Origin: Clostridia bacterium | GTDB lineage: Bacteria > Bacillota > Clostridia > Christensenellales > UBA1242 | DNA: 33,759 bases | Reading direction: 5' to 3' | Assembly (NCBI GenBank): GCA_017399265.1 | Contig: JAFQDL010000007.1 | Location: 1-33,759, forward strand | In this document: one piece after another, positions 1 through 7,348 of the stretch | Layout of the letters: each line of letters starts with the position of its first letter | Position numbering within the stretch: position 1 is the first letter of the stretch | Position numbers and translations under genes: made by a program | Notes under the pieces: model-generated | Told to the model about the DNA's origin: nothing | Seen by the model: only the letters and a program-made list of their open reading frames with translations | Database searches by the model: none

Positions 1-16
1 ACTGTAAATCGGTAGT

Positions 17-67
17 TTTTCCCTTTATTTCTAGGGAAAAGGCGGGATTAGATAATCTTATCTAATC
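17..67. repeat. Two adjacent hairpins before the first tRNA-Ser remnant
   Basis: TTTTCCCT (17-24) pairs with AGGGAAAA (33-40). GATTAGATAA (46-55) then pairs perfectly with TTATCTAATC (58-67) across a 2-nt spacer. Neither arm is followed by a T-run, so these are not obvious terminators. They sit immediately left of the first tRNA-Ser fragment and could be the end of an upstream unit or recombinase-related sites. I cannot choose between these. Confidence 0.5.
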
Positions 68-91
68 GTTGGTGGAGTTTGTTTGGAAAAA

Positions 92-147
92 CTTGAAAAC
101 CGTTGATGTGAGAGCATCCTGGGGTTCGAATCCCTATTCTTCCGCCA
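92..147 (+). repeat. tRNA-Ser 3' fragment, copy 1
   Basis: The segment reads as the 3' two-thirds of a class II tRNA-Ser. It has a CTTGAAA anticodon-loop-like start (TGA anticodon), a long variable arm (GATGT/GCATC with GAGA loop), a T-arm with TTCGAAT loop, the 3' acceptor strand TTCTTCC, G73 and encoded CCA ending at 147. No GGAAGAA 5' acceptor strand or D-arm exists upstream, so it is a remnant and not a functional gene. Confidence 0.75.
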
Positions 148-216
148 AAGTAAGTGGGCAAATGCTCACTTTTTTGTTTTCAAGACCGCCGGCGGTCGTG
201 TGGTTTTTGAGATAAA
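141..216 (+). repeat. 76-bp direct repeat with GACCGCCGGCGGTC palindrome, copy A
   Basis: From the tRNA acceptor end through the terminator and on to GATAAA (216), this segment matches 507-582 almost base for base; only the length of a T-run differs. It contains the perfect 14-bp palindrome GACCGCCGGCGGTC at 184-197. The palindrome is far more GC-rich than the surroundings. The offset between copies is 366 bp. Confidence 0.85.
153..178 (+). terminator. Terminator after tRNA-Ser fragment 1
   Basis: AGTGGGC (153-159) pairs with GCTCACT (164-170), with one G-T pair and an AAAT loop, followed by a T-run. The same terminator recurs after copies 3 and 6, and in diverged form as copy 7. Confidence 0.8.
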
Positions 217-281
217 TGACAACAAAGAATTGGTTTAAAAATTAATAAAGGGGGGAATGAAAATATAAAAGCAGAAAACAT

Positions 282-341
282 ATTCGAAACAAACCGTTGA
301 TGTGAGAGCATCCTGGGGTTCGAATCCCTATTCTTCCGCCA
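282..341 (+). repeat. tRNA-Ser 3' fragment, copy 2
   Basis: ACCGTTGATGTGAGAGCATC through to CCGCCA (341) is identical to copy 1 over the variable arm, T-arm and acceptor. The sequence before it differs (TTCGAAACAA instead of CTTGAAAA), so homology with copy 1 begins inside the anticodon arm. The TTCGAAAC lead-in is shared with copy 4. Confidence 0.75.
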
Positions 342-348
342 AAAAAAT

Positions 349-374
349 GCACAAGGTAATCTTGTGCTTTTTTG
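349..374 (+). terminator. Terminator after tRNA-Ser fragment 2
   Basis: GCACAAG (349-355) and CTTGTGC (361-367) form a perfect 7-bp stem with loop GTAAT, followed by seven T residues. Its sequence is unrelated to the terminator of copies 1, 3 and 6. Confidence 0.8.
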
Positions 375-390
375 TTGAAAGAATAACAAG

Positions 391-485
391 CCTTGCGGCT
401 TTGATTGCGTATACGCAAGGATTCTCACTTGTATTCCGCACTTCTATAAATAAATTTATAGTGCGGAAATTTGACACTTTGTGTC
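391..485. repeat. Cluster of palindromes
   Basis: Three inverted repeats are packed here. CCTTGCG (391-397) pairs with CGCAAGG (414-420), enclosing the perfect palindrome TTGCGTATACGCAA (405-418). A long pair at about 434-468 (TTCCGCAC..CTATAAAT against ATTTATAGTGCGGAA) has a small bulge. GACAC TTT GTGTC lies at 473-485. The last abuts tRNA fragment copy 3. No T-run follows, so they resemble protein-binding or recombination sites more than terminators. Confidence 0.5.
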
Positions 486-490
486 TGCAC

Positions 491-582
491 CGAATCCCAA
501 ATCTTTCCGCCAAAGTAAGTGGGCAAATGCTCACTTTTTTTGTTTTCAAGACCGCCGGCGGTCGTGTGGTTTTTGAGATAAA
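491..582 (+). repeat. tRNA-Ser 3' fragment copy 3 with terminator and palindrome (copy B)
   Basis: CGAATCCC followed by ATCTTTCCGCCA (ending at 512) is the T-arm/acceptor end of the same tRNA, with two small changes. The terminator (518-541) is the same as in copy 1. GACCGCCGGCGGTC lies at 550-563 and the GTGTGGTTTTTGAGATAAA tail ends at 582. The variable arm is missing, so less of the tRNA is retained than in copies 1 and 2. Confidence 0.7.
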
Positions 583-646
583 CGTATAAGTAATACAAAT
601 GATATAAAAATCAAAAGACGAATAGTTAAAAGTGAAGAATAAAAAA

Positions 647-754
647 TTTCGAAACAAACCGTTGATGTGAGAGTGGGTATCCGGGGCCCCATCACTTTCA
701 GTGCCACCCGAAGTATCCATCTATGATGCATAGACGAATCCCTATTCTTCCGCC
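647..754 (+). repeat. tRNA-Ser 3' fragment copy 4, interrupted by a GC-rich insert
   Basis: The left part (647-674, through GTTGATGTGAGAG) matches copy 2. The right part (734-754, CGAATCCCTATTCTTCCGCCA less the first base) matches copies 1 and 2. About 60 bp of much more GC-rich DNA, including GGGGCCCC and a CACT-TTC-AGTG hairpin, replaces the short GCATCCTGGGGTT stretch between them. The copy is therefore split within the variable/T arm. Confidence 0.65.
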
Positions 755-760
755 AATCAG

Positions 761-787
761 AACTGCGTTCGCACACGCAGTTTTTTT
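761..787 (+). terminator. Terminator after tRNA-Ser fragment 4
   Basis: AACTGCG (761-767) pairs with CGCAGTT (776-782) around a TTCGCACA loop, and the stem runs into seven Ts. This is a third, unrelated terminator sequence behind the same tRNA end. Confidence 0.8.
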
Positions 788-897
788 GTTTTTGTCTAAA
801 ATGTGTTTTGTCTATTATTATCCCTGAACAAAAAACAATTAAAAAAATAGATGCAAATCCGAAAATTTTATGTTACAGTATTTTTGAGGTTATAAAT

Positions 898-972
898 ATG
901 AAAAGAGTAAATTTTATTCAATCAATAAAACCCATGAGAAGAAGTGAAAAACTTCTTCTTTTTTTCTTATAG
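898..972 (+). CDS. Possible 24-aa leader-like peptide
   Basis: An ATG at 898 follows TGAGG (885-889) at good spacing and opens a 24-codon frame rich in Lys, Arg, Ser, Leu and Phe. The frame ends at TAG 970-972. Its 3' half overlaps the hairpin terminator at 937-970, which is the geometry of an attenuator leader. No clear promoter precedes it, and a strong -10 for the next gene lies after the hairpin, so it may be a chance frame. No function is proposed. Confidence 0.25.
   Translation: MKRVNFIQSIKPMRRSEKLLLFFL
937..970 (+). terminator. Rho-independent terminator
   Basis: AGAAGAAGT (937-945) and ACTTCTTCT (951-959) form a perfect 9-bp stem with a GAAAA loop, followed by a T-rich tract. It separates the tRNA-remnant cluster from the SGNH hydrolase gene. 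Confidence 0.8.
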
Positions 973-998
973 GTCTTTCATTATTAAATAAAATGTGC

Positions 999-1004
999 TA
1001 TAAT
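999..1004 (+). promoter_or_regulatory. -10 box for the SGNH hydrolase gene
   Basis: A consensus TATAAT lies 29 nt before the start codon. The best -35 candidate is a weak TTTCAT at 976-981, with 17-nt spacing. The promoter lies after the terminator at 937-970, so this gene is an independent unit. Confidence 0.5.
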
Positions 1005-1032
1005 ACTTACAATTTATGGAGGATAGTAAATT

Positions 1033-1659
1033 ATGAATATTCTTTGTTATGGAGACTCTAATACTTGGGGTTATGTTCCAAATATAAATGGTTATTCAAA
1101 AGATGCTATAATGCAAAAATATAATGACAAAGATTGTTGGTGGTATCCATTAATGCAAAACAACAATGTTTTTGTTAATGGACTATGTGGAAGATATATT
1201 GCTCACGAAAATAAATGGCTTAAAAATCGAAATGCTTTTAAAACAATTTCTTCTGACTTACAATCCTACCATGATTTAGACTTGATAATTGTTCAACTAG
1301 GAACAAATGACTGTAAATGTGAGTATCAAGATTCCGCCCAAGATATCACTTATAATTTAGAATTATTATTAGAGACTATTAAAAAACAAACAAAAGCCAA
1401 TATTGTTGTAATTAGTCCCGCAATTATCACTGAAGACAATAAAATAACTCAAAGATACTACATTGGGGCTCAAAAAAAATCTAGTGAATTAGATAGTCTT
1501 TTTGGAAAATTATGCACAGAAAAGGGTTATCAATTTATATCTGGTAAAGATTTAGAAACTGGAGAAGACGGAGAGCATTTAACTAAATTATCACACAAAC
1601 GACTTGGGAGCAGAGTACTATCTAAAATAAACGAATTAACTAATACAAGAGAAATGTAA
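1033..1659 (+). CDS. SGNH/GDSL-family hydrolase
   Basis: The 208-aa protein has the SGNH esterase/lipase signature. Block I is GDSNTWG with nucleophile Ser9, block III is LGTND (90-93), and block V is DGEH with Asp179 and His182 completing the triad. Length and the early GDSN motif fit the small intracellular arylesterase/acetyl-esterase type. There is no signal peptide, so a cytoplasmic carbohydrate- or acyl-esterase is likely; the substrate cannot be read. GGAGGA at 1018-1023 supports the ATG. The gene stands alone between tRNA-Ser remnants 4 and 5 with its own promoter and terminator-bearing flank. This looks like a single-gene cassette. Confidence 0.85.
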   Translation: MNILCYGDSNTWGYVPNINGYSKDAIMQKYNDKDCWWYPLMQNNNVFVNGLCGRYIAHENKWLKNRNAFKTISSDLQSYHDLDLIIVQLGTNDCKCEYQDSAQDITYNLELLLETIKKQTKANIVVISPAIITEDNKITQRYYIGAQKKSSELDSLFGKLCTEKGYQFISGKDLETGEDGEHLTKLSHKRLGSRVLSKINELTNTREM

Positions 1660-1735
1660 AGTATTATTCAATAAAAACTAATATCCTAATTCAGCTGCTA
1701 CCAACATAGATTTTGGTGTTAGGATTGGATACCGG

Positions 1736-1746
1736 TCTTTCCGCCA
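1736..1746 (+). repeat. tRNA-Ser 3'-terminal remnant, copy 5
   Basis: TCTTTCCGCCA is identical to the end of copy 3 (502-512). The upstream GGATTGGATACCGG only loosely resembles a T-arm. On its own 11 nt is weak. Its position directly before a strong terminator, like the other copies, makes it credible. Confidence 0.45.
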
Positions 1747-1751
1747 AGAGT

Positions 1752-1793
1752 AATCGCATTCTAACACTAATGTTGGAGTGCGATTTTTTTATT
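1752..1793 (+). terminator. Terminator after tRNA remnant 5
   Basis: A 15-bp stem is formed by 1752-1766 (AATCGCATTCTAACA) and 1771-1785 (TGTTGGAGTGCGATT), with two G-T pairs and loop CTAA, followed by a T-run. It can terminate the SGNH hydrolase transcript. Confidence 0.85.
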
Positions 1794-1801
1794 TCTGTAT
1801 T

Positions 1802-1903
1802 AAAGGTGTTGCTGGTTTTGTTGTACCTACTCAAAAAATTGAATATACTCAAACTCATTACCTAAGCCAGAAAAGAAATAAATTTGGTGATTTTTATAAA
1901 TAA
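1802..1903 (+). pseudogene. 3' remnant of an unidentified gene
   Basis: The frame reads as 33 residues (KGVAGFVVPTQKIEYTQTHY onward) ending at TAA 1901-1903, with ordinary protein-like composition. It has no start codon or ribosome-binding site and begins right after the terminator of tRNA remnant 5. It looks like the C-terminal stub of a gene truncated at the repeat junction. I do not recognise the family. The rest of the 1660-2046 gap shows only the tRNA remnant, its terminator and the next gene's promoter. Confidence 0.35.
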
Positions 1904-2016
1904 TAACAAGAATATTTGACCAATACTCCACTTTTATAATTTATGTTTTAAGTCATATTAACTTGTGTGCTTTTAATTTTATGCAAAAAATCTGCACAAT
2001 CTTTAAATATGTGTGT

Positions 2017-2022
2017 TATAAT
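2017..2022 (+). promoter_or_regulatory. -10 box for the GrpB-family gene
   Basis: A consensus TATAAT lies 25 nt upstream of the start codon. No good -35 hexamer is visible at standard spacing. Confidence 0.45.
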
Positions 2023-2046
2023 ATAATTAACTGAGGAGATTAAACT

Positions 2047-2607
2047 ATGATAAAAAAATTATCAGAAATGAGTTTAAAAGAACTTTGGAAATTATTTCCT
2101 ATATTTCTGACAAAACATCAATCCTGTTGGGAAAGTTGGTATTTGCAGGAAAAAGTATTATTAGAAAAAACAATCCCTCATATAGAAAGAATAAGCCATA
2201 TTGGTAGCACGGCAATTTCAACAATTTGGGCAAAGCCAATTATTGATATTTTGATAGAAATTCCTAAAAATAAAGAATTGTCAAGTTATATTGATTTAAT
2301 TGTTAATGCTGGATATATTTGTATGTCTAAAAGCAAAGATAAAATATCTTTTAATAAAGGATATACTGAAAAAGGATTTGCCGAAAAAGTGTTTCACCTT
2401 CATTTGAAATATAGTGGAAATAATGATGAGTTATACTTTAAAGATTACCTTATTGAACATCCTGATATTGCTAAAAAATATGAGAAATTAAAATTAGAAC
2501 TAGGGGAAAAGTACAAAAACAATAGAGATGCATATACAAATGCAAAAGCGGAATTTGTGAAGAAATATACAGATAAAGCAAAATCAATATATACTGGTAG
2601 ATATTAA
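2047..2607 (+). CDS. GrpB family protein (UPF0157, nucleotidyltransferase-like fold)
   Basis: The 186-aa protein carries the family hallmark HIGSTAISTIWAKPIIDI near residues 51-69, matching the GSTAvpGlxAKPiIDi pattern of GrpB/UPF0157 proteins. These are predicted minimal nucleotidyltransferases of unknown substrate; the Asp of the IDI stretch corresponds to a metal-binding position. The C-terminal segment around FHLHLKY and the RDAYTNAKAEFVKKY helix also fit the family. A few family members are fused to or sit near CoA or acetyltransferase enzymes, but here the gene stands alone. GAGGAG precedes the ATG. It is the second single-gene unit between tRNA-Ser remnants. Confidence 0.85.
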   Translation: MIKKLSEMSLKELWKLFPIFLTKHQSCWESWYLQEKVLLEKTIPHIERISHIGSTAISTIWAKPIIDILIEIPKNKELSSYIDLIVNAGYICMSKSKDKISFNKGYTEKGFAEKVFHLHLKYSGNNDELYFKDYLIEHPDIAKKYEKLKLELGEKYKNNRDAYTNAKAEFVKKYTDKAKSIYTGRY

Positions 2608-2670
2608 TAATACTATATTTAAAAAATTGATAGAAATATTATAATCTTGTTAGAATGCCATTGTCATTCC

Positions 2671-2711
2671 CCCGCCAAAGTAAGTGGGCAAATGCTCACT
2701 TTTTTGTTTTT
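2671..2711 (+). repeat. tRNA-Ser end plus terminator, copy 6
   Basis: From CCGCCA to the T-rich tail, about 39 nt are identical to copy 1 (143-181). The terminator stem is AGTGGGC (2683-2689) with GCTCACT (2694-2700). Only the last bases of the tRNA (CCCGCCA, ending at 2677) remain. The terminator serves as the 3' end of the GrpB-family gene. Confidence 0.8.
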
Positions 2712-2763
2712 TATAATAAGTTTTTTTGTTTTAAAATATTATGAAATTTGTTAACATATAAAT

Positions 2764-3627
2764 ATGAGAAAGTTTAAACAAATTTATATAGAAATAACTA
2801 ATATATGTAATCTTAATTGTTCATTTTGTCCTAAGAATAATCGTCCTAAAAGATTTATGACACTAGAAGAGTTTGATACAATTACAGATGAAATATCTCC
2901 CTTAACTAACACTGTTTGTTTACACCTTATGGGAGAACCCTTGTTGCACCCAAATATAAAAGAGATATTTGAGATCTGTAACAAAAAAAATCTGAATGTG
3001 TATTTAACAACCAATGGAACACTCATTAAGCAAAATTTGGATTTGTTAAAATCTGGTTGTGCAAAAAGAATTTCAGTTAGTCTACACAGTTATGAAGCGA
3101 ACAACAATTCTAATTCTTTAGATGAATATTTAGACAACATACTATTCTCTTGTAAAGAAATTTCTGATAATAGCCAAACATATATAGAACTTAGATTGTG
3201 GAATGAGTCTAGCGACAAAAATGCTAAGAATACATTGAACAAAAATATAATAGAAAAAATAAATAAAATATTTAACACAAATCTAGCTGCAAAAAATTTA
3301 CAATGTCACATAAGTATAACCGATAAAGTTTATATTAGTTTTGCAGATGCTTTCGAATGGCCGATTAACACAGAAAATCAAGAAAGTAATAGCGTAAAAT
3401 TTTGCTACGGATTGCGTTCTCATTTCGGAATTTTGTGTGATGGTACTGTTGTTGCTTGTTGCTTAGATAATGAGGGGAAACTCGCACTTGGCAATATTTT
3501 TAATAGTAAAATAGCTGATATTTTAAACACCCCAAGAGCTCAAAAAATTTACAAAGGATTTGCTGATAGAAATATTTCGGAAGAATTTTGCAAAACTTGT
3601 ACATATGCAAATAAATTTATTGGATAA
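2764..3627 (+). CDS. Radical SAM protein with SPASM-like C-terminal domain
   Basis: The 287-aa protein begins with a radical SAM core: CNLNCSFC at about residues 15-22 gives the CxxxCxxC cluster that binds the SAM-cleaving [4Fe-4S]. MGEP (about 56-59) is the usual follow-on strand. The C-terminus has a SPASM/twitch-type cysteine set: FCYG, DGTVVACC, LGNIFNS and FCKTC. Such enzymes modify peptides or small molecules. No precursor peptide gene is visible nearby, so the substrate is unknown. There is no clear Shine-Dalgarno; the ATG at 2764 is chosen because the family N-terminus begins there and stops lie just upstream. It is the third single-gene unit between tRNA-Ser terminator repeats. Confidence 0.85.
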   Translation: MRKFKQIYIEITNICNLNCSFCPKNNRPKRFMTLEEFDTITDEISPLTNTVCLHLMGEPLLHPNIKEIFEICNKKNLNVYLTTNGTLIKQNLDLLKSGCAKRISVSLHSYEANNNSNSLDEYLDNILFSCKEISDNSQTYIELRLWNESSDKNAKNTLNKNIIEKINKIFNTNLAAKNLQCHISITDKVYISFADAFEWPINTENQESNSVKFCYGLRSHFGILCDGTVVACCLDNEGKLALGNIFNSKIADILNTPRAQKIYKGFADRNISEEFCKTCTYANKFIG

Positions 3628-3646
3628 ATTGTATAATGATAAATAC

Positions 3647-3682
3647 CACTCAATTATTTGCAAAATAAATATTAATTGAGTG
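3647..3682. terminator. Inverted repeat after the radical SAM gene
   Basis: CACTCAATTA (3647-3656) and TAATTGAGTG (3673-3682) form a perfect 10-bp stem with a 16-nt loop just downstream of the stop codon. A T-run is missing, so termination is uncertain. The 3628-3950 gap otherwise holds only the repeat copy at 3793-3822 and the leader of the next gene. Confidence 0.4.
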
Positions 3683-3792
3683 ATTAAGATATATACGAGT
3701 CTTTTAGTGAAGAAATCGGAATTATATCCATCCTAACAAATATTTGTTTGATATATAAATAACAATGCATTTTACATGACTATTAATTAACA

Positions 3793-3822
3793 AAAGTAAG
3801 CGGGTATATGCTCGCTTTTTTT
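3793..3822 (+). terminator. Diverged terminator repeat, copy 7
   Basis: AAGTAAGCGGGTATATGCTC onward matches the terminator of copies 1, 3 and 6. A T-to-C change in the left arm (AGCGGGT, 3799-3805) is matched by A-to-G in the right arm (GCTCGCT, 3810-3816), preserving the pair. A T-run follows. The tRNA end itself is gone. The compensated change indicates that the hairpin has been kept as a functional terminator. Confidence 0.75.
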
Positions 3823-3950
3823 GAGGCTGTAAAATTAATTAAAAGAGGTGTTATTTAGATAAACTTTTATAATTTATTGTTTTGTAAATTTATATAAATC
3901 TGTTAAACTGAGAGTGTCAATTTTAAATACAATATTAAAGAGGATGTGTT

Positions 3951-5102
3951 ATGGATATAAGCAAAAATATTAAGTATATAGGTGTTAATGATTATGAAAT
4001 AGATCTGTTTGAAGGGCAATATATTGTTCCAAATGGAATGGCATATAATTCATATTTGATTATTGATGAGAATGTTGCTGTGTTTGATACAGTTGATGAG
4101 AGATTTGCTGACGAGTGGATTTCTAACATATACTCCGAATTGGAAGAGAAAGAACCAGATTACCTTATTATTCAACATATGGAACCAGACCATTCTGGAA
4201 GTATTATGAGATTTGCCAAAGAGTTTCCAAATACAAAAATTGTAGCATCAAGTAGGGCTTTTGGAATGATGAAGAATTTCTTTGGGACGGGTTTTGAGGA
4301 TCGACAAGTAGTGGTGTCAGAAGGTTCTACATTAAGTTTAGGTGAGCATGAATTAACGTTTATCGAAGCTCCTATGGTCCACTGGCCAGAAGTTATCATG
4401 ACATATGAAAAAACAGAAAAAGTGTTGTTCTCAGCTGATGCATTTGGGAAGTTTGGAGCATTAGATGCTGACGAAGATTGGGCATGTGAGGCTAGAAGAT
4501 ATTATATTGGAATAGTTGGTAAATACGGCATGCCTGTACAAAATCTATTAAAAAAGGCTGCAGCTTTAGATATTAAGACAATATGCCCACTTCATGGTCC
4601 AATACTAAAGGATAATTTAGGATATTATATTGATTTATACAAAACTTGGTCTAGTTATGGAATAGAGAGCGAAGGTATAGTTGTTGCATATACTTCAGTA
4701 TATGGAAACACAAAAAAAGCAGTAGAACTTTTGGCGAAAATGTTAGAAGAGAAAGGTCAAAAAGTTACAATAAATGACCTTGCTAGATGTGATATGGCAG
4801 AAGCTGTAGAAGATGCTTTTAGGTATGGCAAAATAGTATTTGCCACTACAACATACAATGGAGATGTTTTTCCGTTCATGAGGGAGTTTATCAATCATTT
4901 AACTGAGAGAAACTTTCAAAATAGGTTAGTTGCTTTTATAGAGAATGGTAGTTGGGCACCAATGGCGACTAGTATCATGAAAAAGATGTTAGAGAATTGT
5001 AAAAATTTAGAATATGCAAACACATCAGTTAAAATAATGTCGGCATTAAATGCTGATAACATGGAACAATTAAAAATTTTAGCAGAAGAATTGTGTAAAT
5101 AA
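3951..5102 (+). CDS. Flavodiiron protein (A-type flavoprotein, O2/NO reductase)
   Basis: This 383-aa protein reduces O2 to water and/or NO to N2O in anaerobes, taking electrons from rubredoxin or a similar donor. The N-terminal metallo-beta-lactamase-like domain keeps the diiron ligands: HMEPDH gives His76, Glu78, Asp80 and His81. His144 is in MVHWP, Asp163 in SADAF and His215 in PLHGP. The C-terminal flavodoxin domain (from about residue 237) has the FMN-phosphate loop TSVYGNT. There is no fused rubredoxin or flavin reductase, so it is the two-domain class A form; length is typical. AGAGG precedes the ATG. It begins a + strand run that looks like chromosomal backbone after the repeat array. 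Confidence 0.93.
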   Translation: MDISKNIKYIGVNDYEIDLFEGQYIVPNGMAYNSYLIIDENVAVFDTVDERFADEWISNIYSELEEKEPDYLIIQHMEPDHSGSIMRFAKEFPNTKIVASSRAFGMMKNFFGTGFEDRQVVVSEGSTLSLGEHELTFIEAPMVHWPEVIMTYEKTEKVLFSADAFGKFGALDADEDWACEARRYYIGIVGKYGMPVQNLLKKAAALDIKTICPLHGPILKDNLGYYIDLYKTWSSYGIESEGIVVAYTSVYGNTKKAVELLAKMLEEKGQKVTINDLARCDMAEAVEDAFRYGKIVFATTTYNGDVFPFMREFINHLTERNFQNRLVAFIENGSWAPMATSIMKKMLENCKNLEYANTSVKIMSALNADNMEQLKILAEELCK

Positions 5103-6892: not shown

Positions 6893-7348
6893 ATGAACAA
6901 ATTTATGAAAATTGCTTTTGAAGAAGCTAAGAAAGGAATATGGGCAGGCCATGGTGGGCCTTTTGGTTCAGTAATTGTCAAAGATGGCAAAATAGTTAGT
7001 AAAGGTCATAATCACGTGGTTGTTAACAATGATCCCACTTGCCATGGAGAAATAGATGCAATTAGAAAAGCTTGCAAGAAATTAAAAACTTTTGATCTTT
7101 CTGGCTGTGAGATATATACTACAGGTTTTCCTTGCCCGATGTGTTTTTGCGCAATTCTTTGGGCAAATATTGACAAAGTATATTATGGTTGTAATACTAC
7201 AGATACAGAAACTATTGGTTTTAGAGACAAGGCTTTTGAAGAAAGTATAGCCAAAAAGAAAAAAAGTATTTGTCAAGAACTAGATAGAGAAGAGTGTTTG
7301 AAATTGTATCAAGATTATAATAATATCGAGAATAAAACTAACTATTAA
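6893..7348 (+). CDS. Guanine deaminase-like CDA-fold deaminase
   Basis: The 151-aa protein closely follows the small GuaD guanine deaminase layout (guanine to xanthine and ammonia): GGPFGSVIVKDG (21-32), NNDPTCHGEIDAIRKACK (45-62) and FPCPMC (79-84). Zn ligands are His51, Cys81 and Cys84, with Glu53 as the proton shuttle. The usual HAE is HGE here, an unusual Ala-to-Gly at residue 52 next to the catalytic Glu. The C-terminal tail differs from the B. subtilis type, so a related purine or pterin substrate is possible. AGAGG precedes the ATG. The sugar kinase follows after 49 nt and probably shares the transcript. Confidence 0.82.
   Translation: MNKFMKIAFEEAKKGIWAGHGGPFGSVIVKDGKIVSKGHNHVVVNNDPTCHGEIDAIRKACKKLKTFDLSGCEIYTTGFPCPMCFCAILWANIDKVYYGCNTTDTETIGFRDKAFEESIAKKKKSICQELDREECLKLYQDYNNIENKTNY

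Follow-up and report, generated by a model that had tools for sequence, protein, structure and literature searches.

Repeated tRNA-Ser(TGA) 3' ends in a clostridial contig and a possible genus-wide system of T-loop-anchored gene cassettes

What process leaves, at the left end of one clostridial contig, a series of transfer RNA (tRNA) 3' ends, each followed by a terminator and, further in, with one gene in each interval? The contig (C6; JAFQDL010000007.1 of assembly GCA_017399265.1, Clostridia bacterium) was analysed in its entirety, and its 33,759 nucleotides (nt) are called the window below. A first-pass annotation of the letters alone had likened the locus to an integron or a tycheposon. Our best explanation, which we regard as evenly poised between right and wrong, is that the window is the outer part of an accretion array at tRNA-Ser(TGA), and that it belongs to a genus-wide, T-loop-anchored cassette system working like an integron. 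What carries this reading is seen directly in the genomes: the anatomy of small hairpin units, their sharp boundary in the T-loop, the covariation of their core, presence and absence among relatives, arrays, and single-gene cargo.

An explanation confined to this one locus was dropped after a scan of 72 tRNAs for downstream copies of their own last 18 nt, which gave 21 matches and none in the reverse complement. Three of the 21 (L082, L138) were neighbouring tRNAs; those in the window's own genome included matches for Lys, Thr, Tyr, Glu, Leu, Arg and Gln. The wider scan took in an incomplete sample of 215 tRNAs, drawn from search lists and belonging to 20 genomes, and found an own-3'-end copy outside intact tRNAs for 43 of them, compared with 4 in the reverse-complement control and 2 in a control with the wrong tRNA. 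All 43 were among the 200 tRNAs of 12 genomes of the window's genus, spread over nine genomes and 18 anticodon types, two of which (Ala, Gly-TCC) represent units of neighbouring tRNAs. This count is unpruned, as G002 Ala and G012 Gly lie in units of neighbours and G002 Tyr (844) and Arg (1266) look like copies of the anticodon type. Two separate sets, each comprising the 30 best-scoring loci and having control counts of 1 and 0, gave copies for 3 of 76 tRNAs in other genera of the family and for 5 of 85 in other families of the order, L262 looking like a chance match. Therefore, the copies are much denser in the window's genus than outside it. Hairpin-rich stretches, several of them with GAGGAAAA motifs, were observed between the tRNA and its 3'-end copy in other families (L258, L274) and other genera (L300, L307), and are possibly an order-wide relative of the genus units.

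The left boundary of the copies was measured in 45 of 61 copies, namely those with at least 16 of 18 positions matching and with duplicates and Ala left out. Counted back from CCA, the match was exactly 21 nt long in 27 copies and 18-20 nt in 16, 18 being the floor of this measure and copies with 16-17 of 18 positions having internal mismatches; one copy matched over 37 nt, one over 51 nt, and none over 22-36 nt. Upstream of the boundary, identity fell to 0-6 of 10 positions, near chance. Position 21 from the tRNA end is, in standard tRNA numbering, C56 of the T-loop. The 27 copies that start exactly there have the form expected of a T-loop insertion with a 3'-end repeat. The earlier placing of the junctions at CCGCCA thus does not hold for most copies, which are sharp at C56.

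A hairpin transposable element of the miniature inverted-repeat (MITE-like) kind, cutting the T-loop with a fixed stagger of 21 nt, would leave a similar trace, because C56 to A76 is always 21 nt and the target-site duplication would equal the tRNA 3' end. The 21-nt copies at many different tRNAs fit such an element, as do copies of the end of transfer-messenger RNA (tmRNA) seen by eye, and in 30 of the 45 copies the flank after CCA has no more than 18 of 30 bases in common with that of the intact tRNA. In the other 15, however, at least 22 of 30 bases are shared and the terminator is duplicated too. The first terminators are also diverse by eye, not conserved as one element's part would be, and the inverted arms described below match the host tRNA in 28 of 51 units. 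We consider a transposable element of this kind improbable.

The units have a common anatomy. Those shorter than 420 bp (n = 52) measure 84-249 bp, and a full one begins with a terminator, after which come part of its tRNA's acceptor and T-stem in inverted orientation, two small hairpins with free sequence, and part of the other side of the T-arm, likewise inverted; the hairpin core and the 21-nt copy close it. Compared with other tRNAs, the unit's own tRNA was a better partner for the inverted pieces than 90% of them in 28 of 51 units; shuffles were surpassed at 0.05 also in 28 of 51, though not by exactly the same units. For the core, 19 hand-chosen examples of the main type were aligned by MAFFT; other core types exist besides. 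The outer helix was paired in 97.4% of cells, with C-G as the outer pair in seven cores, G-C in seven and U-A in five, and the covariation score was 0.184, compared with 0.072 in shuffles and at most 0.071 with the partner slid. Fold z-scores were -4.3 for a G004 unit, -3.5 for one of G012, -2.2 for one of G007 and -4.4 for window 383-513, and in the fold of the L071 unit the outer arm pairs with the tRNA copy.

Covarying helices, together with an intact tRNA or tmRNA ahead on the same strand in 26 of 30 core loci, could also be explained if the units were structured RNAs or regulatory tRNA trailers that do not move. This we think very improbable indeed, as by eye a terminator usually separates the tRNA from the unit, the presence of units varies between relatives and some units contain genes. 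In addition, Rfam 15 gave no match in the window, and in eight other loci, at a lax threshold, only tRNAs came out above threshold, the other matches being weak and below gathering scores.

The spread of the core was followed with a covariance model, which replaced a class-A pattern that had hit 4 of 13 genus genomes and of whose seven matches four were plain tRNA ends. The 19 cores served to build this model (R1), which recovers them by construction. Among 119 genomes, 12 had matches (66 in all): eight of the 13 genus members and one genome from each of four other genera in the family. Of the 30 loci that R1 returned, 24 follow an intact tRNA or tmRNA at a distance of up to about 300 nt, and two (L243, L247) follow a tRNA with about 1 kb and a gene in between. 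The remaining four, for which the examined stretch showed no intact tRNA, are the window itself (L237), L223, where a 3' fragment of tRNA-Thr is present, L232, which sits at a contig edge, and L233. A search of viral contigs with the exact core pattern found nothing. The tmRNA genes of two genomes (L230 in G001:C5, L248 in G005:C18) were seen to be followed by one or two hairpin units ending in copies of the tmRNA 3' end, in one genome two in tandem.

A minority of units carry one gene, and these gene-bearing units measure about 0.7-1.1 kb. Behind tRNA-Leu(TAG) of G007 and G012 there are one-gene units encoding proteins of 111 amino acids (aa) and of 276-299 aa, depending on the start chosen, with no Pfam match; behind tRNA-Leu(GAG) of G006 a DUF4097 gene stands between two near-identical cores, and behind tRNA-Arg(TCG) of G004 a one-gene unit encodes a GNAT protein. 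The number of units varies at loci whose downstream gene is conserved. Behind tRNA-Tyr with a shared downstream gene, G002 and G005 have copies, whereas G006 and G009 lack them; behind tRNA-Trp, likewise with a shared downstream gene, G007 has three copies and G006 and G009 none, where zero means none over threshold, as the Trp locus of G002 scored zero despite a visible decayed unit. At tRNA-Lys, Leu(TAA) and Thr(CGT), copy number also differs among relatives with a common downstream gene. The presence and absence of single units that the first-pass annotation had proposed to look for is thus found among relatives.

That annotation had already raised an alternative in which slippage or unequal crossing over duplicates tRNA 3' regions in tandem, the copies decay and genes enter by chance. 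Near-identical tandem units do occur (Gly, Lys and Leu-TAA of G002, Trp of G007, Leu-CAA of G000) and may come from ordinary recombination. Yet such duplication does not create hairpin cores, T-loop boundaries or cores common to different tRNAs and genomes, and it does not account for the tRNA-matched inverted arms, the cargo or the A-B-A order that, by eye, the units show at Thr-CGT of G000 and at Ile of G004. As a general explanation we hold it to be quite improbable. At L243/L251 (G004:C16), the tRNA-Arg(TCG) differs from that of G000, but the 3' end found after it, behind a core, is that of the G000-type tRNA-Arg; it looks as though an incoming element had replaced the tRNA body.

The window can now be read against this anatomy. 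All features of its array lie on the plus strand:

1..97, plus strand: apparent right end of an element inserted in tRNA-Ser(TGA), near-identical to a stretch at the edge of G007:C9
92..147, plus strand: copy 1, the tRNA-Ser(TGA) 3' half from the anticodon loop to CCA, with letters identical to the intact tRNA-Ser of G001/G004
152..171, plus strand: terminator of the type AAGTGGGC..GCTCACTT
292..341, plus strand: copy 2, 50 nt of the tRNA-Ser 3' half, 100% over 1-52 of the query
349..367, plus strand: terminator of a unique type
383..512, plus strand: hairpin unit whose core is of a second type (GGATTCTCACTTGTATTCC..GGAAATTTGAC..GTCTGCACCGAATCC); its end (491-512) is a decayed tRNA 3' end
517..536, plus strand: terminator of the same type as at 152
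657..673, plus strand: left piece of the tRNA-Ser 3' half, broken before the T-arm, 100% to query 1-17
675..741, plus strand: hairpin core of the main type (GGTAnTCGGGnCCCC..CACCCGA), 62.3 bits with model R1, whose training set holds this sequence
735..755, plus strand: last 21 nt of tRNA-Ser from C56, perfect, overlapping the core at 675..741
759..784, plus strand: terminator of a unique type
1033..1659, plus strand: cassette gene 1, GDSL/SGNH hydrolase of 208 aa (PF13472, E 1.3e-10)
1683..1746, plus strand: copy 5, an imperfect hairpin ending in TCTTTCCGCCA
1752..1785, plus strand: terminator of a unique type
2047..2607, plus strand: cassette gene 2, GrpB-family protein of 186 aa (PF04229, E 8.4e-43)
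2647..2677, plus strand: copy 6, TTGTTAGAATGCCATTGTCATTCCCCCGCCA; similar ends adjoin a GNAT gene in G002 and G012
2682..2701, plus strand: terminator of the same type as at 152
2764..3627, plus strand: cassette gene 3, radical SAM/SPASM protein of 287 aa (PF04055, E 5.5e-18; PF13186, E 5.3e-13)
3798..3817, plus strand: copy 7, terminator only

The seven graded sites described earlier are all there. Six end in CCGCCA with a terminator (92-147, 292-341, 491-512, 657-755, about 1683-1746 and about 2647-2677), and the seventh (3798-3817) is a terminator alone; the terminators at 152-171, 517-536, 2682-2701 and 3798-3817 are alike, and those at 349-367, 759-784 and 1752-1785 are each distinct. Positions 1-4000 hold 16 terminator-like sites, compared with 1.4 expected from shuffles. 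From 1033 on, each interval does contain one gene, and Pfam matches agree with the three functions first proposed. The -10 boxes reported for the first two cassette genes carry no weight, as 23 promoter-like sites were found and 25 in shuffles. Copies 1 and 2 correspond to the 3' half of the intact tRNA-Ser(TGA) of G001/G004 (GGAAGAATGG...TATTCTTCCGCCA). Decay of the copies rises with distance from the left end of the contig, except that copy 4 has a perfect last 21 nt. This copy is a composite of the tRNA piece at 657-673, the core and the overlapping 735-755. By eye, the second-core-type design of 383..512 recurs behind tRNA-Tyr and tRNA-Thr of the same genome. The source genome is incomplete (1.11 Mb, 80.75% complete). 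ARAGORN gave it tRNA-Ser anticodons CGA, GGA and GCT (16 of 24 tRNA loci being given), and a pattern search allowing up to three mismatches found no tRNA-Ser(TGA) body in the assembly.

The intact locus was compared in 18 stretches with tRNA-Ser(TGA). In relatives of the same genus the gene is intact, and in G001 and G004 its last letters are the very ones that the window repeats. In G007, G002 and G012, single genes stand between terminator-followed sites that end like tRNA-Ser(TGA). At the G007 locus there are two, one for a zinc-ribbon protein and one for a GNAT acetyltransferase, and the 28-nt sites behind them are identical but for one base. In G002 and G012 a single GNAT gene lies between the junctions; G004, G005 and G008 have hairpin units there and no clear gene. 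The genes upstream are partly conserved among G005, G007 and G012. Behind the tRNA they differ, and farther on G005 and G007 again share two families (F11, F34). Accretion with a tRNA 3' end as the repeated junction, as first suggested, is supported by these other single genes and by the varying presence of units, except that it is no affair of one tRNA-Ser locus, the family being found behind many tRNAs and tmRNA. The gene-bearing units of the window and G007 keep about 6-11 nt of the tRNA end at their right ends, the window's last keeping none.

tRNA genes are classic landing sites of genomic islands, and an integrase usually serves one tRNA. The copies could be right attachment sites (attR) left by larger elements with a phage-type or integrative and conjugative element (ICE)-type tyrosine integrase, the genes and hairpin units being remnants of these. 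Copy 1 is such an attR. Window 1-97 and the tRNA-Ser 3' half that follows have an almost identical counterpart at one edge of a contig (C9) in the relative G007; within its first 10 kb this contig has a phage-type integrase and helix-turn-helix regulators. Because of this likeness to an integrase-bearing contig, the window contig seems to break inside an integrated element of which copy 1 is the right end. In this respect copy 1 differs from the other copies. The body of the element would lie to the left of the window contig, and it was not found in the window's genome. An integrase-bearing element with an attR scar, as a prophage or ICE would have, was seen for copy 1 only, through the likeness to G007:C9. 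In G007 (C9) and G020 there are integrase genes close to tRNA-Ser or to its copy, so that the lack of recombinases near the copies, which the first-pass annotation had named as speaking against it, was not what we found; others are on stretches holding tRNA-Arg(CCT) and tRNA-Ser(GCT) in relatives. Near the anticodon, which is the other classical site of integrases, lie the starts of copies 1 and 2 and of one copy in G007. Most copies, however, start at C56 and not at the anticodon, and the gene-less units of 84-249 bp share one structure across many tRNA species, in genomes with 0-4 tyrosine recombinases found in each (G000, G002, G004-G009, G012). As an account of the whole array, integrase-driven accretion appears unlikely to us, though it deserves some weight.

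Which enzyme could serve the units? The nine genus genomes examined (L096-L110) have in common an Xer-like recombinase gene, its product about 350 aa long, next to a lexA-like gene (named from sequence). Four of these recombinases were scanned and came closest to XerS, yet fell below the cutoff of the XerS model. These four and seven other tyrosine recombinases, eleven in all from the assembled parts of G000, G002, G006, G007, G009 and G012, scored at most 68 bits with the integron integrase model (TIGR02249), whose cutoff is 265. As for a Ccr-like serine recombinase of the Dehalococcoides kind, no stop-free frame of at least 150 aa with a resolvase motif was found in 1.47 Mb of loci (overlaps counted), a genome-wide search not having been made. 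Copy 1 not counted, the units measure 84-249 bp, or about 0.7-1.1 kb with one gene, and contain no recombinase, which is not what a tycheposon, with its recombinase inside a kb-sized element, would look like; the likeness to integrons or tycheposons first drawn was not supported as membership in either. By eye, an IS200-like transposase sequence was noticed close behind tRNA-Arg(CCT) in L018 (G000:C8) and L076 (G009:C1), with a similar hairpin end in L076. Mechanisms of the IS110/bridge-RNA and IS200 types were also weighed as candidates.

In the cassette reading that we prefer, a full unit would consist of the last 21 nt from C56 to CCA, a terminator, inverted tRNA arms interrupted by two hairpins, and the hairpin core, with an optional single gene between terminator and core. 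A recombinase acting in trans would join the core end to C56 of the T-loop; the incoming unit would give the tRNA gene a new 3' end and terminator, and older ones would be pushed outward. The core would fold by pairing of its inverted arm with the tRNA 3' end that follows and act as the mobile site, as attC does in integrons, the tRNA T-arm being the landing site in the manner of attI. The arm may be tailored to each tRNA because pairing with that tRNA's own 3' end would be needed. Site-specific recombination, excision, single-strand folding and the enzyme are what we infer here. The full proposal is an integron-like system with all tRNA genes and tmRNA as landing sites, with sites that customise the inverted arm and always rebuild the 3' end, and with single-gene cassettes added, shuffled and deleted in small Clostridia genomes by a trans-acting recombinase, maybe on folded single strands. 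It is tentative, and we would put it somewhat below an even chance.

Several observations weigh against a cassette system. Plain homologous recombination could give the same result in the 15 copies with duplicated terminators. The inverted arms failed to pass in 23 of 51 units, one of five structure measures of the core (further pair types, 20 compared with 18.9) did not rise above shuffles, and the third core helix was only 42.5% paired and poorly aligned. In the window, 655-756 (copy 4) folded no better than shuffles (z +0.29) and 1665-1746 (copy 5) weakly (z -1.3). The sites that close the gene-bearing cassettes there are degenerate and retain about 6-9 nt of the tRNA end, or nothing in the last case; these short ends are the weakest link between the window cassettes and intact units. 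Finally, the sole tyrosine recombinase seen in most of the genus (nine genomes examined) looks like a housekeeping Xer. Its frame contains a stop in G002, and it is present in genomes with few units, namely G009 (1 of 32 tRNAs, no core match) and G006 (1 of 24, four core matches).

The units were also compared with known systems. Islands that repair tRNA 3' ends are established (Islander, PMC4383910), and tRNA fragments left by mobile elements are common (PMC9897764). The ssrA islands of Dehalococcoides likewise involve T-loop insertion, a 20-bp repeat and tandem islands, but use ssrA only and carry an integration module including the serine recombinases DsiB/DsiA (PMC3146451); the units here are small (84-249 bp or one gene), serve many tRNAs with a tRNA-matched multi-hairpin site and have no recombinase of their own. 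In Ca. Methylopumilus, repeats of the last 20 nt of tRNA-Lys mark additive islands of 330 bp-42 kb with 1-63 coding sequences (PMC10872708). Those islands resemble the present ones in tRNA-end repeats and variable accessory content and differ in using one tRNA, and that source, in the part available, mentions no structured unit. Tycheposons, elements of 4-200 kbp with a tyrosine recombinase (PMC10872708), share tRNA-anchored accretion of cargo in small genomes, whereas the units here are tiny and have no recombinase. With integron cassettes and their attC sites (PMC3053210, PMC6393395, PMC4792948) the units have in common single genes, a putative folded palindromic end site, a common landing site and arrays. 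Unlike integrons, they land in T-arms of tRNA and tmRNA, bring their own terminators and are mostly empty, and no integron integrase was among the 11 recombinases scanned. Mycobacteriophage Ms6 integrates into tRNA-Ala T-loops, with strand exchange possibly in the 7-base T-loop, but is a phage with its own integrase and a tRNA-specific 26-base core, unlike the units (PMC1762012). No account of small structured units fitted to many tRNAs turned up in a search of the open-access literature, which did not cover subscription journals or preprints.

What sets the units apart is a single structural design for tmRNA and many tRNA species, several of which it serves in one and the same genome, with arms matched to the tRNA and with delivery of single genes. 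If the cassette reading is true, Clostridia would possess a second gene-cassette array architecture besides integrons, and its sites would form a natural series on how T-loop recombination keeps essential tRNAs intact. The core model offers a search model for such arrays in uncultured genomes.

Some observations concern single genes. Homologues of the SGNH hydrolase are present in 24 of 297 family genomes, including the window's own. Movement of this cassette as such between genomes was considered and rejected, as no pair of cassette ends was seen by eye within about 400-450 nt of 16 genes of at least 39% identity (the window's own copy and one duplicate contig excluded; eight weaker matches were not inspected). 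A repeated terminator does lie near the homologue in L138, and six of the 16 (L129, L132, L135, L138, L139, L140) have a tRNA gene no more than about 450 nt away. By eye, a short frame resembling IKGVAGFVVPTQK, apparently what is left of the C-terminal part of a gene, was seen behind Ser-type terminators in three places (window 1800-1905, L028, L078). Some kb behind the tRNA-Ser array, at 6893-7348, the window carries a deaminase gene (PF00383), which is presumably tadA-like.

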